Below, piece by piece: positions 13,264 to 37,905 of a stretch of 40,435 nucleotides of DNA. The stretch is taken from the NCBI GenBank assembly GCA_030147525.1, contig JASBVF010000013.1, positions 1-40,435 on the forward strand, written 5' to 3'. The notes under the pieces are model-generated. The model ran no database searches and was not told the origin of the DNA. It saw only the letters and a program-made list of their open reading frames with translations. Within the stretch, counting starts at the first letter, position 1. Each line of letters begins with the position of its first letter. Source of the stretch: Bacteroidota bacterium. GTDB lineage: Bacteria > Bacteroidota > Bacteroidia > Chitinophagales > Saprospiraceae. Made by a program: the position numbers and the translations under genes.

Positions 13264-13344
13264 AGATTTTTACTTTTGTCTGTTCACGCCGGGAAGCCTG
13301 AAGTGACATCCCGGCGTGAACAGCCGTCTTAAAAGTAAAAATCT
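13264..13344. promoter_or_regulatory. Long bipartite palindrome with a -7-like box before the M48 gene
   Basis: The inner stem is perfect over 15 bp (13280-13294 with 13309-13323). An outer pair is perfect over 14 bp (13264-13277 with 13331-13344), with only a few unpaired bases between stems. It begins 10 bp after the gldG stop and ends 7 bp before the M48 ATG. The left outer arm contains TACTTTTG (13271-13278), a -7-like box, although no TTTG lies at the right distance upstream. It could terminate gldG transcription, or act as a 5'-leader structure for the downstream gene. Confidence 0.65.
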
Positions 13345-13351
13345 TTCGACC

Positions 13352-14791
13352 ATGAAAAACACTACCCTCCGCATCCGGCTACTCGCCATTTTCATCGTAT
13401 TCGCTACCTTTCTCATCTCCTGCGCCGTCAACCCTGTCACCGGAAAAAAAGAGCTGATGCTCATTTCCAAAAGCCAGGAAAAAGCAATGGGCCTCGCTTA
13501 CGACCCTCAGGTCATTGCCGAATTTGGTCTCTACGACGATCAGAAACTCCAGAATTTCATCAATGAAAAAGGCAAAAAAATGGGGCGCCTGAGCCACCGT
13601 CCGGAGCTTGACTATCAGTTCCGCATCCTCGACTCACCGGTAGTGAACGCCTTTGCTGTGCCGGGCGGCTTCGTGTATTTCACCCGGGGCATTATGGCGC
13701 ATTTCAACAACGAAGCGGAATTTGCCGGGGTATTGGGCCATGAAATCGGGCATATCACTGCCCGTCACTCGGCCCGTCAGCAGAGCGACCAGATTCTGGC
13801 GCAGGTGGGCTTCATGGCAGCCATGATCGCCTCGAAAGATTTCAGAAAATACTCCGACCTGGCGCAGACGGGGCTTGGTTTGCTTTTTTTGAAATTCAGC
13901 AGGAGCCACGAGAGCCAGTCCGACAAGCTCGGCGTGGAATACTCCACCAAAATCGGTTACGACGCCCACGAAATGGCCAACTTTTTTCAAACCATCGGGC
14001 GGCTGCAGGACCAGTCCGGCGGCAGCATTCCTACTTTTTTATCGACTCACCCCGACCCGGGGCAGCGTTACTCAAAAGTCCACGAAATGGCGGCCAAGGA
14101 GCAAACCAAAACCGGTAAAACTAACCTGAGCGTTGAGCGAGATGATTACCTCCGCATGATCGACGGGATGGTGTACGGCGAAGATCCACGGCAGGGATAC
14201 GTGGAAGGGAATGTTTTTTATCATCCTGAGCTGAAATTCCAATTCCCCGTACCGGCCAGCTGGCAGACGGTGAACACTAATTCACATGTACAAATCGCTC
14301 CGAAAGACGGTAAAGCTGCCATCATTCTGACCATCGCCGGCGGCAATTCGCTGGAGGAAGCCGCACGGGGAGCCATCGCTGCCGACAGCCTCCGGGTTAT
14401 TTCAAAAAATAATATCAATGTGAATGGAAACAGCGCCATCGAAATCACTGCCGACCTGAACCCGCAGGTGCGCCTGCTGATGTACCTCATCCAGTACAAC
14501 GGCCTGATCTACAAATTCACCGGCCTGAGCGAAACGCCGAGTTTTAACAGTTACAGAAACACGTTCACCAGTAGTTTTAAAAATTTCAAAGCACTGACCG
14601 ACCCGTCAAAAATCAATGTACAACCTGAGAAAATCGCCATCAAAACCGTCGCCCGGGACGCCTCGCTGGCCGATGCCCTCAGGTCTTTCAACATGCCTTC
14701 CAATCGCATGGAAGAACTCGCCATCCTCAATGGCATGAAACTGACGGACCAGGTGAAAAAGGGAATGCTGATAAAAACAGTGGAAAAATGA
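13352..14791 (+). CDS. M48-family metalloprotease lipoprotein
   Basis: The start at 13352 is preferred over an upstream in-frame ATG (13316) that lies inside the palindrome, because MKNTTLRIRLLAIFIVFATFLISC forms a clean lipoprotein signal (Cys about residue 24). The 479-residue protein has the zinc motif HEIGH at 130-134 and the third ligand region SHESQSD (Glu about 187), both hallmarks of M48 peptidases. The conserved phrase NPVTGKKELMLISK follows the lipid anchor. The C-terminal third is less conserved and ends with a LysM-like stretch (SNRMEELAILNGMKLTDQVKKGMLIKTV), suggesting cell-wall contact. A role in envelope protein quality control, like BepA/LoiP, is likely from family. Confidence 0.92.
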   Translation: MKNTTLRIRLLAIFIVFATFLISCAVNPVTGKKELMLISKSQEKAMGLAYDPQVIAEFGLYDDQKLQNFINEKGKKMGRLSHRPELDYQFRILDSPVVNAFAVPGGFVYFTRGIMAHFNNEAEFAGVLGHEIGHITARHSARQQSDQILAQVGFMAAMIASKDFRKYSDLAQTGLGLLFLKFSRSHESQSDKLGVEYSTKIGYDAHEMANFFQTIGRLQDQSGGSIPTFLSTHPDPGQRYSKVHEMAAKEQTKTGKTNLSVERDDYLRMIDGMVYGEDPRQGYVEGNVFYHPELKFQFPVPASWQTVNTNSHVQIAPKDGKAAIILTIAGGNSLEEAARGAIAADSLRVISKNNINVNGNSAIEITADLNPQVRLLMYLIQYNGLIYKFTGLSETPSFNSYRNTFTSSFKNFKALTDPSKINVQPEKIAIKTVARDASLADALRSFNMPSNRMEELAILNGMKLTDQVKKGMLIKTVEK

Positions 14792-14860
14792 ATGAGTGAA
14801 TGACAGAATGATGGAATGAGTGAATTGGGCCCCATTCTATCATTCTGTCATTCACTCATT
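14791..14860. terminator. Convergent hairpin between M48 gene and rnpB
   Basis: Arms 14791-14818 and 14833-14860 are complementary at 27 of 28 positions with a 14-base spacer. The arms consist of reiterated words such as AATGAGTGAATGA. The left arm begins at the last base of the M48 stop codon. It can serve as a bidirectional terminator. On the minus strand rnpB ends just before it with a run of five T. Confidence 0.75.
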
Positions 14861-14865
14861 AAAAA

Positions 14866-15454
14866 GCACTGCAGGCCAATAAGCCGGATTCTGTAATCCC
14901 TTTCGGGACCTCCATCATTTATCTCGAACTGACTTCACAGCCAGCCTCTATCTGCCTACCCCCCGGCTCGGGCGAGCAACCCTTTTGCCCCGGTTTCCCG
15001 GAGCAGCACCGGTGTACATGACATTTCAACCCACAAGGTTTATCCGCCCCGACAGTTACCTGCCAACGCCGTGCGCTCTTACCGCACGTTTTCACCCTTA
15101 CTTTTTGAAGTAGGCGAGTAGGCGGAGTAGGCCGATAGTGGAGTAGGCGAGTAGGCCGGTAAGCCGGTAGGCAAGTAAGCCGATTGGCAAATATCCTGAA
15201 AGGTTACTTTCGTATTTGCCTACTGGCTTACTTGCCTACCGGCCTACTCGCCTACTCGCCTACTCCGCCCACTGGCCTACTTGCCTACTCCAAAAAGCGG
15301 TTATTTTCTGTGACACTCTCTGGCCTCCGGCACTGCTGCCGAAGTCCCACCCGTTAGGTGGTGTGGCGCTCTACGTTGTCCGGACTTTCCTCCCCACGCA
15401 CCCCCAACCCCTGAAGGGGAGCTGATGCTGAGGCGATGGAGTAGCCCGCAGTGC
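14866..15454 (-). ncRNA. rnpB: RNase P RNA (bacterial type A) with enlarged P12
   Basis: This is the catalytic RNA of RNase P, which trims tRNA 5' ends. On the minus strand the conserved 5' block GAGGAAAGTCCGGAC lies at 15392-15378 and the 3' block ACAGAATCCGGCTTA at 14894-14880. Helix P1 is supported by GCACTGC at 15454-15448 pairing with GCAGTGC at 14872-14866, followed by five T. The CACCCTTAC and CGGTTATTTTCTG strands that normally flank P12 are split by a 196-bp repeat insertion (15101-15296). Without it the RNA would be about 393 nt, a usual size, so the core looks intact. It lies 45 bp downstream of the zinc-ribbon gene on the same strand. Confidence 0.93.
15101..15296. repeat. GTAGGCGA-type palindromic insertion inside rnpB
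   Basis: The left arm (15101-15193) is made of reiterated 8-bp words near GTAGGCGA, GTAGGCCG and GTAAGCCG. The right arm (15212-15296) is the imperfect reverse complement, built of the same words. Both ends are bounded by CTTTTT / AAAAAG. As RNA this would fold as one hairpin of about 85-90 bp extending helix P12. The same word recurs downstream of truA (29460-29510) and of the M20 gene (36202-36214). Confidence 0.9.
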
Positions 15455-28722: not shown

Positions 28723-29463
28723 ATGAAATTCCTCATCCACCTCTCCTACAAAGGCACCCGCTACCACGGCTGGCAGCGGCAGGCGAACCACCTCACCGTG
28801 CAGGAGGTGCTGGAAGATACGCTTGAAAAAATGACGGGCGCCAAAATCAACTGCATCGGTTGTGGTCGCACAGACGCCAGGGTGCATGCCAGCCAGTATT
28901 TCTGCCACATCAAAGTGGAGGAGGATTTTACCTACGACCCTGTTTTCCGCCTGAATAAAATGCTGCCGGACGACATCACCATCCATGAATTCATCCCCGC
29001 TGACTGGGACCTGCACGCCCAACACGATGCCGTGGCAAGAACTTACACTTACCGCATTCATACCCAACCCGATGCTTTCCTGAGCGAACTGAGCGCATTT
29101 TACACCAAAGAAAATCTGGATGTGGAGCGCATGCAGGCAGCCGTGGAAATCCTCGCCCGCCAGCGGGATTTCCGCTCGATGTGCCGCCACCCGGAGCTTT
29201 ACAAAACGACGATCTGCGAACTGACCGAAGCCCGGCTCGATGTTTTTGAAAATGGCAAACGCATTGAATTCACCTTCACTGCCGACCGGTTTTTGCGGTC
29301 GATGGTGCGCATTTTGGTGGGGCAAACCCTGCAAATCGGCTACGGCCGGTTGAGTTTGGAGGCGTTTGAAAATTGTTTTAAAACCGGCCAGCCGCCCGGC
29401 CGTTTAAAGCTGGCGCATCCGCAGGGGTTGTATTTGTCGGGGGTACAGTACAATTTTAAGTAG
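28723..29463 (+). CDS. truA: tRNA pseudouridine(38-40) synthase TruA
   Basis: This 246-residue protein makes pseudouridine at positions 38-40 of the tRNA anticodon arm. The catalytic Asp is Asp51 in GCGRTDARVHA. Other family markers are YKGTRYHGWQRQ at the N-terminus (about 9-20), DLHAQHDAVARTYTYRI (about 104-120) and FTADRFLRSMVRILVGQ (about 186-202). Length is typical. The TAG stop at 29461-29463 lies in the first unit of a GTAGGCGA word repeat. Confidence 0.95.
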   Translation: MKFLIHLSYKGTRYHGWQRQANHLTVQEVLEDTLEKMTGAKINCIGCGRTDARVHASQYFCHIKVEEDFTYDPVFRLNKMLPDDITIHEFIPADWDLHAQHDAVARTYTYRIHTQPDAFLSELSAFYTKENLDVERMQAAVEILARQRDFRSMCRHPELYKTTICELTEARLDVFENGKRIEFTFTADRFLRSMVRILVGQTLQIGYGRLSLEAFENCFKTGQPPGRLKLAHPQGLYLSGVQYNFK

Positions 29464-29510
29464 GCGAGTAGGCAGGTAGGCGAGTAGGCGAGTAGGCGAG
29501 TAAGTAGGCC
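29460..29510. repeat. GTAGGCGA tandem array overlapping the truA stop
   Basis: About five tandem 8-bp units near GTAGGCGA (with one GTAGGCAG) run from 29460, followed by a degenerate GTAAGTAGGCC. The truA stop codon is the TAG of the first unit. The unit is the same as that in the insertion in rnpB (15101-15296). Here only one orientation is present, with no opposing arm nearby. Confidence 0.85.
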
Positions 29511-30413: not shown

Positions 30414-30570
30414 AGGATAGGAACACGGATGACACGGATTGGGCGGATTAAAACGGATTTTTTTGAAATAACCGCTTCATCTTGTCATTGTCAAAGACAA
30501 AACTGTGTGGTATGTCAAGAGAAAAATCCGTCTTAATCCGCCCAATCCGTGTCATCCGTGTTCCTATCCT
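30414..30570. repeat. Palindromic element family A, copy 2
   Basis: Outer arms 30414-30462 and 30522-30570 are reverse complements at 48 of 49 positions. They contain ACACGGATGACACGGATTGG and GCGGATTAAAACGGATTTTT. The interior holds a degenerate trace of the inner arm seen in copies 1 and 3 (CTTGTCATTGTCAAAGACAA at 30481-30500). The element lies between the YfiT-like and amidohydrolase genes, both on the plus strand. Confidence 0.9.
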
Positions 30571-31772: not shown

Positions 31773-32010
31773 CAGGATTGGAACACGGATGACACGGATT
31801 GGACGGATTAAAACGGATTTTTTTTGAAAACTACCACCACATCTTGTCATTGTCGCAGACAACCTGCAACGTCGTGAGGGCTGTTAAAAAGACACTTCTC
31901 ACAGCCAACATGACGTTGCAGGTTGTCTTCGACAATGACAAAGGCACAGCAAGCAGACAAAAAAGTCCGTTTTAATCCGTCCAATCCGTGTCATCCGTGA
32001 TCCAATCCTG
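31773..32010. repeat. Palindromic element family A, copy 3
   Basis: Outer arms begin at about 31773 and end at 32010. They share ACACGGATGACACGGATTGG and ACGGATTAAAACGGA-type sequence with copy 2, with a few mismatches. The inner arms 31844-31873 and 31912-31940 are near complementary and close to the inner arms of copy 1, with CGTGAGGGCTG / CTCACAGCC near the loop. This is the most complete copy. It begins 12 bp after the amidohydrolase stop and ends 21 bp before the hemG start. Confidence 0.9.
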
Positions 32011-33393: not shown

Positions 33394-33456
33394 GGGATTA
33401 GGGATGACGGGGCGGCCCTCATAGCGTATGCAATTTTGCAAAACGTGGCTTCCCAC

Positions 33457-33585
33457 ATGGCGTGGACGGGTCCCCGAGGGGATACAAAAGGGGCTTCGGG
33501 ACGTCAAAAAAGGCTGTATTTCAATGCAATATCCTTTTTCGATTTTACTGCGCTTTGTTTCCCCTCGGGGACCCGTCCACGCCAC
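33457..33585. repeat. Palindromic element family B, copy 1
   Basis: Left arm 33457-33488 and right arm 33554-33585 are near reverse complements built on GCGTGGACGGGTCCCCGAGG followed by GG(A/T)(A/T)ACAAA. A ~65-bp AT-richer spacer separates them. Two further copies lie at 36980-37113 and 37711-37840. It sits between hemG and the 33636 gene. Confidence 0.88.
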
Positions 33586-33635
33586 GTTCGTAAGTTAGCA
33601 GTGTTTTAACCAGACAAACTGAGCAATTTTCAAAA

Positions 33636-36979: not shown

Positions 36980-37113
36980 CGTGGCGTGGACGGATCCCTA
37001 AAGGGAAACAAAGGGGTACCGGGACAGCTAAAAAAGGTTTTTGTAATCCAGCCCGGCCTTTTTCAAATTTACGAGGTCCCTTTGTTTCCCCTCGGGGATC
37101 CGTCCACGCCACG
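36980..37113. repeat. Palindromic element family B, copy 2
   Basis: Left arm 36980-37015 and right arm 37076-37113 are near reverse complements with CGTGGCGTGGACGGATCCC, an A/G-variable centre and GGGAAACAAAGGG. The spacer is ~60 bp. Just before it, 36909-36946 contains reiterated GTTGGC / TTTTGGC words. The element sits in the 254-bp gap between the HupE and DUF6702 genes. Confidence 0.88.
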
Positions 37114-37653: not shown

Positions 37654-37710
37654 TCTTGATTGACATTTGACTCACATGGCGTGGACAAATTTGCAAAACG
37701 GGACTTCCCT

Positions 37711-37840
37711 CGTGGCGTGGACGGGTCCCCAAGGGGAAACAAAGGGGCATCGTAAATTTGAAAAAAGACCAGGCATGATGCAAAACCTTTTTTGCCTTCC
37801 CAAGACCCCTTTGTATCCCTTTAGGGACCCGTCCACGCCA
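37711..37840. repeat. Palindromic element family B, copy 3
   Basis: Left arm 37711-37748 and right arm 37806-37840 are near reverse complements with GGCGTGGACGGGTCCC and (G/T)ACAAAGGGG; the spacer is ~57 bp. A partial GGCGTGGACAAAT copy lies just before it at about 37679-37690. After it, 37856-37902 holds reiterated ATAAATCAA / AATCATAAATC words up to the M1 peptidase start. Confidence 0.88.
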
Positions 37841-37905
37841 AAAGTGAAGCCCCGCCAAATCAAAAATCATAAATCAAGAATCGTAGAATCATAAATCAAA
37901 GAAGA

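Follow-up and report, generated by a model that had tools for sequence, protein, structure and literature searches.

Does the RNase P RNA gene of this Saprospiraceae genome carry a palindromic repeat inside helix P12, and if so, where would such a repeat come from and how would an essential ribozyme accommodate it? The question arises in a window (the whole stretch of DNA that was analysed, 40,435 nt) in which the first-pass annotation had recognized an rnpB gene with both conserved ends, its helix P12 replaced by two complementary arms of short words that were ascribed to a dispersed repeat family. The features concerned are the following, with coordinates referring to the window.

14864..15452, minus strand: rnpB, class A RNase P RNA, 589 nt with inserts (RF00010, 208.1 bits, model 1-367, E 3.2e-66)
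15101..15296, minus strand: word-palindrome insert in the P12 loop, between model positions 136/137 of the RF00010 alignment (fold z -18.75)
15213..15296, minus strand: 5' arm of the P12 insert in the RNA, made of GUAGGCNN words (from inverted arms and fold)
15194..15212, minus strand: apical part of the P12 insert, without words (gap between the inner inverted arms, and fold)
15101..15193, minus strand: 3' arm of the P12 insert in the RNA, complement of the words (from inverted arms and fold)
15401..15419, minus strand: P3 extension fitting the dispersed repeat CCCCNRACCCCTNAAGGGG (plus-strand notation; fit read from the sequence)
14791..14860, no strand assigned: word palindrome of another family, with GAATGA words (arms of 28 nt, 96% complementary; periodicity 0.78 at 8 nt)

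In the covariance search the gene clearly exceeds the RF00010 gathering score of 100; all 367 model positions are matched, and both conserved ends are present. By this full-length match it is a bacterial class A RNase P RNA, with catalytic activity predicted. A single rnpB was detected by the RF00010 search in the 7.08-Mb genome (98% complete), and no second copy was found. The conserved blocks on either side of P12 are intact in the alignment, which places the repeat inside the RNA, in P12 as first annotated, and not outside it.

The P12 insert is 196 nt long and is composed of words of about 8 nt, GTAGGCNN, each consisting of GTAGGC plus two variable bases, with direct repeats mostly spaced by 8 nt. 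Its inverted arms 15108-15177 and 15213-15282 (70 nt) are 81% complementary, and the inner inverted arms 15140-15193 and 15213-15266 (54 nt) 89%. Folded as RNA, the stretch 15101-15296 reaches -141 kcal/mol compared with -62.2 +/- 4.2 kcal/mol for dinucleotide shuffles, and none of 200 shuffles folded as well; the palindromic word structure proposed at the outset is thereby borne out. When the complete 589-nt RNA was folded at minimum energy, pseudoknots excluded, 154 of the 196 insert bases paired within the insert and 14 outside of it. Two further repeats touch this gene. The GAATGA palindrome takes up the whole interval from the stop codon of an M48 peptidase gene (ORF 13316-14791, PF01435) to the 3' end of rnpB, and the pattern CCCCNRACCCCTNAAGGGG of the P3 extension has 43 matches in the genome (reversed-pattern control: 0). 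P3 of a congener, G011, likewise fits the CCCCNRACCCCTNAAGGGG repeat.

Membership of a dispersed family, as assumed in the first-pass annotation, was confirmed within the genome. Used as a DNA query against its own genome, the insert gave 100 matches with both strands counted (40 of 112 candidates scored), corresponding by our count to at least 40 separate places. For the pattern GTAGGCNNGTARGCNNGTARGC, 138 matches were obtained in this genome, overlapping ones included, and the pattern search returned no match in any of the 13 congeners; the reversed-pattern control gave 0 in all 14 genomes. Altogether the GTAGGC family occupies about 50 places among the matches listed (our count: 40 plus 11 further), and it is species-specific. 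Its copies vary in length and extent. Considering the loci of the best matches together with the Y1 genes discussed below, 14 distinct word clusters were distinguished, 9 of them intergenic and 5 in mechanical ORFs. In all eight two-armed places among the GTAGGCNNGTARGCNNGTARGC matches listed (arms within 300 bp) the word comes first and its complement second, and some GTAGGC clusters also contain single stray words in the opposite sense. A further GTAGGC word array is located at 29454-29502 of the window.

The comparison with related genomes was based on a genus set of 14 genomes including this one (G000). Except for G005 (95% complete) and G010 (94% complete), in which neither RF00010, laxer filters nor a DNA search retrieved rnpB, the gene was found in all of them, and the counts below rest on these 12. 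The P12 segment measures 21-22 nt in seven genomes and 133-226 nt in the other five, each of which has a word palindrome there: GTAGGC words in G000 and GATTTCGG words in G006, G007, G008, and G011. Word palindromes were also observed in the hairpin between P16 and P17, an extra hairpin of the kind named P16.1, in three of the 12 genomes, namely G007 and G008, both also with a P12 insert, and G012. This P16/P17 segment is 122 nt long in G012 (GATTTCGG words), 139 nt in G007 (GAAATTGG words), and 232 nt in G008 (GTCATT words), compared with 52-82 nt in the remaining nine, and by covariance alignment the inserts of G007, G008, and G012 map to the P12 loop and to the region between P16 and P17. 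Word families thus differ between hosts as well as between sites. The initial interpretation is supported, and the picture is wider than first drawn, a second hairpin and other word families being involved.

Comparing G007 with G011 and G008 with G013 by eye, the inserts at the P16/P17 site retain the lower stem and lack the former tip. Inspection of the rnpB insert sites by eye revealed no target-site duplication; empty tips are hypervariable there, and in the filled sites the original tip has disappeared. Similar to the GTAGGC family, the words of the GATTTCGG inserts are dispersed in their hosts: GGATTTCGGATTTCGG has 159 matches in G012, 32 in G007, 21 in G006, 20 in G008, and 15 in G011 (reversed control: 0), and a further five genomes whose rnpB lacks such an insert have 1-11 matches each. 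In G012 the word precedes its complement in 10 of 10 two-armed GGATTTCGGATTTCGG places among the matches listed. The inner loops of four GATTTCGG inserts were compared as inverted copies between species in both orientations, and with low scores of 7 to 13.5 no convincing relation emerged. In the P12 insert of G008 (L034), the loop holds more than 100 nt of word-free sequence.

To how many gains do these inserts correspond? The tree from the rnpB core alone is poorly resolved. In a midpoint-rooted rpoB+rnpB tree, in which G006, lacking an rpoB match, was placed by rnpB alone, G006, G007, and G011 group together, while G008 is found with G001, G004, and G013. Because these three sisters of G008 have a short P12, the GATTTCGG inserts in P12 are explained equally well by two gains or by a single gain plus a loss. 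Each of the three P16/P17 inserts belongs to a separate lineage, and given that they also represent three word families, they are best read as three gains. The GTAGGC host stands apart from the GATTTCGG hosts, and its P12 insert is a separate gain from theirs. The total for the genus is best read as at least five gains. A second structured RNA, tmRNA, served as a control that covers half of the insert hosts: a match over the cut-off was obtained in 10 of the 14 genomes, including three of the six insert hosts (G000, G007, and G008), and as all of these matches span 376-393 nt, tmRNA is not lengthened in those ten genomes. In case of the insert hosts G006, G011, and G012, and of G013, only weak tmRNA matches below the cut-off were obtained.

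We consider it probable that the insert is a copy of a species-specific palindromic short-word family at the tip of P12, and that the tips of rnpB hairpins tolerate the landing or growth of such repeats and were repeatedly invaded in this genus. Palindromic word repeats, otherwise common at gene 3' ends, would repeatedly invade, or grow on, rnpB hairpin tips, and the GTAGGC palindrome would have taken over the tip of P12. Pairing of its arms would extend the RNA by a long rod pointing away from the core; as the two arms pair with each other and the rod leaves the core spared, the enzyme is expected to keep working. Selection would allow such growth only where the rod can leave the enzyme without touching the core, and different word families would repeat the process within the genus at P12 and at the extra P16/P17 hairpin. 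We infer that the RNA is transcribed with the arm and is active. The tips would be favoured through tolerance rather than targeting, and the words presumably spread by copying with template switching or by means of a transposase.

A possible, if rather unlikely, alternative is that the hairpin grew in place, slippage and template switching at DNA hairpins having lengthened and symmetrized the tip with no incoming element. The position of the inserts on hairpin axes fits this, as do the replacement of the old tip above retained base pairs in the P16/P17 comparisons mentioned above and the varying length of the GTAGGC copies. However, the same words are found at about 50 dispersed places here and in none of the 13 congeners, which argues that words moved or were copied between loci. 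An intervening sequence, for which the arm would be cut by RNase III and the enzyme would work as two RNA pieces held together by the core, is compatible with repeated invasion of hairpin tips and seems an unlikely addition to it. In its favour, the arms are about 90 nt each with long runs of pairs, and RNase III is encoded in the genome (PF14622, 101 bits).

Spread of the palindromes by a single-strand transposase (Y1/RAYT-type), in the manner of REP-like elements, appears improbable. Four Y1_Tnp matches over the cut-off are present in the genome, three of which are weak (28-38 bits). The Y1 gene at C5:22474 (L103 1423-2013) is preceded by GTAGGC words (L103 1227-1256) situated about 170 bp upstream of its frame, yet these words form a single arm and not a palindrome, and the other three Y1 loci lack a cluster of four or more GTAGGC words in the stretches inspected. 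A Y1 transposase as the driver finds no support beyond one gene beside a single word arm. The words at L103 1227-1256 supply the stop codon of the preceding gene, with the Y1 transposase-like gene downstream. An assembly artefact, which a draft genome of 59 contigs and the general difficulty of assembling long palindromes might suggest, is most improbable, given that the insert is internal to its contig, with intact rnpB sequence flanking it to the left and right, and that the same kind of insert occurs in separately deposited MAGs of related species.

The study of Vioque 1997 (PMID 9254706) concerns, according to its title as cited in PMC2858038 and PMC4046671, STRR sequences in the RNase P RNA of heterocyst-forming cyanobacteria. 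The part of PMC2858038 that cites this study describes the cyanobacterial P12 as sometimes dispensable. Among known cases, the STRR in the RNase P RNA of heterocystous cyanobacteria come closest, and the inserts described here are the same phenomenon in another phylum. In both cases tandem short words lengthen P12, here with 8-nt spacing in the P12 loop, so that the cyanobacterial parallel drawn at first holds. The 1997 work is said to have identified P12 as the helix lengthened by the STRR and to have encountered unrelated repeats in close relatives, matching the GTAGGC versus GATTTCGG words within one genus here; the repeat is reportedly not needed for activity in vitro, and small dispersed repeats in Nostoc are said to have been described by Elhai in 2008. 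Different from the STRR, the words here are mostly 7-8 nt long and form two arms complementary to each other. Invasion also extends to the hairpin between P16 and P17, and possibly to P3, and the host is not a heterocyst-forming cyanobacterium, the 16 named relatives being Saprospiraceae, Saprospirales or Bacteroidetes MAGs.

Other systems resemble the inserts in part. RNase III excises the intervening sequences of 23S rRNA helices, leaving the rRNA fragmented, and these sequences are not known to consist of dispersed short words. Like the P12 insert, they are self-paired and sit at the tip of a helix in an essential RNA, whereas the P12 insert is made of dispersed short words. REP elements with RAYT transposases are dispersed intergenic palindromes near gene 3' ends, as are the palindromes here; unlike them, the latter have arms of tandem words, show no fixed ends, and have no convincing association with a Y1 transposase. 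With respect to the MITE traits of fixed terminal inverted repeats and target-site duplication, the absence of a visible duplication applies to the rnpB sites with their hypervariable empty tips, and matches to the insert differ in length and extent. Rickettsia palindromic elements are palindromic repeats entering genes and are comparable by description in residing inside a gene. A literature search extending to few subscription journals retrieved no paper on word palindromes in Bacteroidota rnpB, on repeat insertions in helix P12 of RNase P RNA, on palindromic tandem hairpin intergenic repeats in Bacteroidetes, on RNase III-fragmented RNase P RNA with an intervening sequence, or on Rickettsia palindromic elements in connection with RNase P.

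In a wider set of 198 genomes that contained this one, the RF00010 search was successful in 188; for five of the ten misses, neither laxer filters (in a repeat with 38 genomes) nor a DNA search yielded anything. A scan with an rnpB pattern returned 16 loci from Saprospiraceae, Saprospirales or Bacteroidetes MAGs, 11 of which are genes of the genus set. In the other five (L107, L109, L110, L113, and L119), P12 measures 22-38 nt and word palindromes are absent. Outside the genus, P12 was inspected in a chosen subset of relatives and measured where the anchors applied, the others being assessed by total length alone among the matches listed, and longer P12 segments without such words were observed in G014, G033, G036, and G071 (63-96 nt by anchors) and also in G121. 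In three of these genomes, which belong to three other genera (L090, L089, and L098 of G014, G033, and G036), P12 ends in a similar AGCTT(C/T)AGCGAAGGCGG sequence, which may represent a further repeat family located there.

This genome is rich in word palindromes, which belong to many families, are mainly intergenic, and frequently lie at the 3' ends of genes. Defining a word palindrome by a periodicity of at least 0.58 in an arm (our own threshold), 33 were counted in the surveyed 840 kb, about one per 25 kb; the P12 insert itself, with a periodicity of 0.56, falls below this threshold and is not among them. In 32 of the 33 the 5' arm contains more G than C, compared with 32 of 60 non-word palindromes from the same 840 kb (G < C in 26), where copies of one family are not independent in these counts. 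The corresponding figures from 200 kb each are 13 of 14 word palindromes in G004 (non-word: 7 with more versus 8 with less, of 19) and 3 of 5 in G007 (13 versus 9, of 23), and a first pass over 440 kb with a threshold of 0.55 gave 13 of 13 for word palindromes, 11 of 14 for a middle class, and 20 of 40 for non-word palindromes. Stop triplets are similarly distributed: across three genomes, 52 word palindromes contain 181 in their 5' arms versus 57 in the complements, and 102 non-word palindromes 179 versus 161.

With respect to genes, which in these counts are mechanical ORFs, 22 of the 33 word palindromes are intergenic and 11 lie in ORFs. Only one of the 22 is located in a divergent gap, compared with about 29% of intergenic bases (our sum). 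In the three genomes together, a gene 3' end lies within 8 bp of 21 of 34 intergenic word palindromes versus 17 of 72 non-word palindromes (Fisher p 0.0002), a contrast that is partly built in because a word array supplying a stop codon ends a mechanical ORF inside itself. Within the window, two long palindromes of ACGGATT words are situated at 30414-30570 and 31773-32010 (arms of 49-52 nt, 96-98% complementary), and three copies of a repeated palindrome with GGCGTGGACGG ends at 33455-33587, 36980-37113, and 37699-37854. It is tempting to speculate, though we would hold to this only tentatively, that palindromic word repeats form a general class with intrinsic polarity, whose 5' arm is G-rich, C-poor, and rich in stops, closing frames from either side. 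Single species might continually give rise to new families, which would settle at the 3' ends of genes and on the tips of hairpins in structured RNA. RNase P RNA, with at least two hairpins and several families involved in one genus, might then act as a natural screen for insertion tolerance, and cleavage of the giant arm may yield an RNase P in two pieces.

Within one genus of the Saprospiraceae, an essential ribozyme has been invaded repeatedly at defined helix tips by different repeat families, in a phylum distant from the cyanobacteria, the group from which repeats in the RNase P RNA gene have been described. P12 and the P16/P17 hairpin thereby become testable as general tolerated sites, and the helix tips constitute a natural map of where RNase P tolerates invasion. 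Empty and filled sites in sister species provide a comparative system for how short-word palindromes arise and spread.
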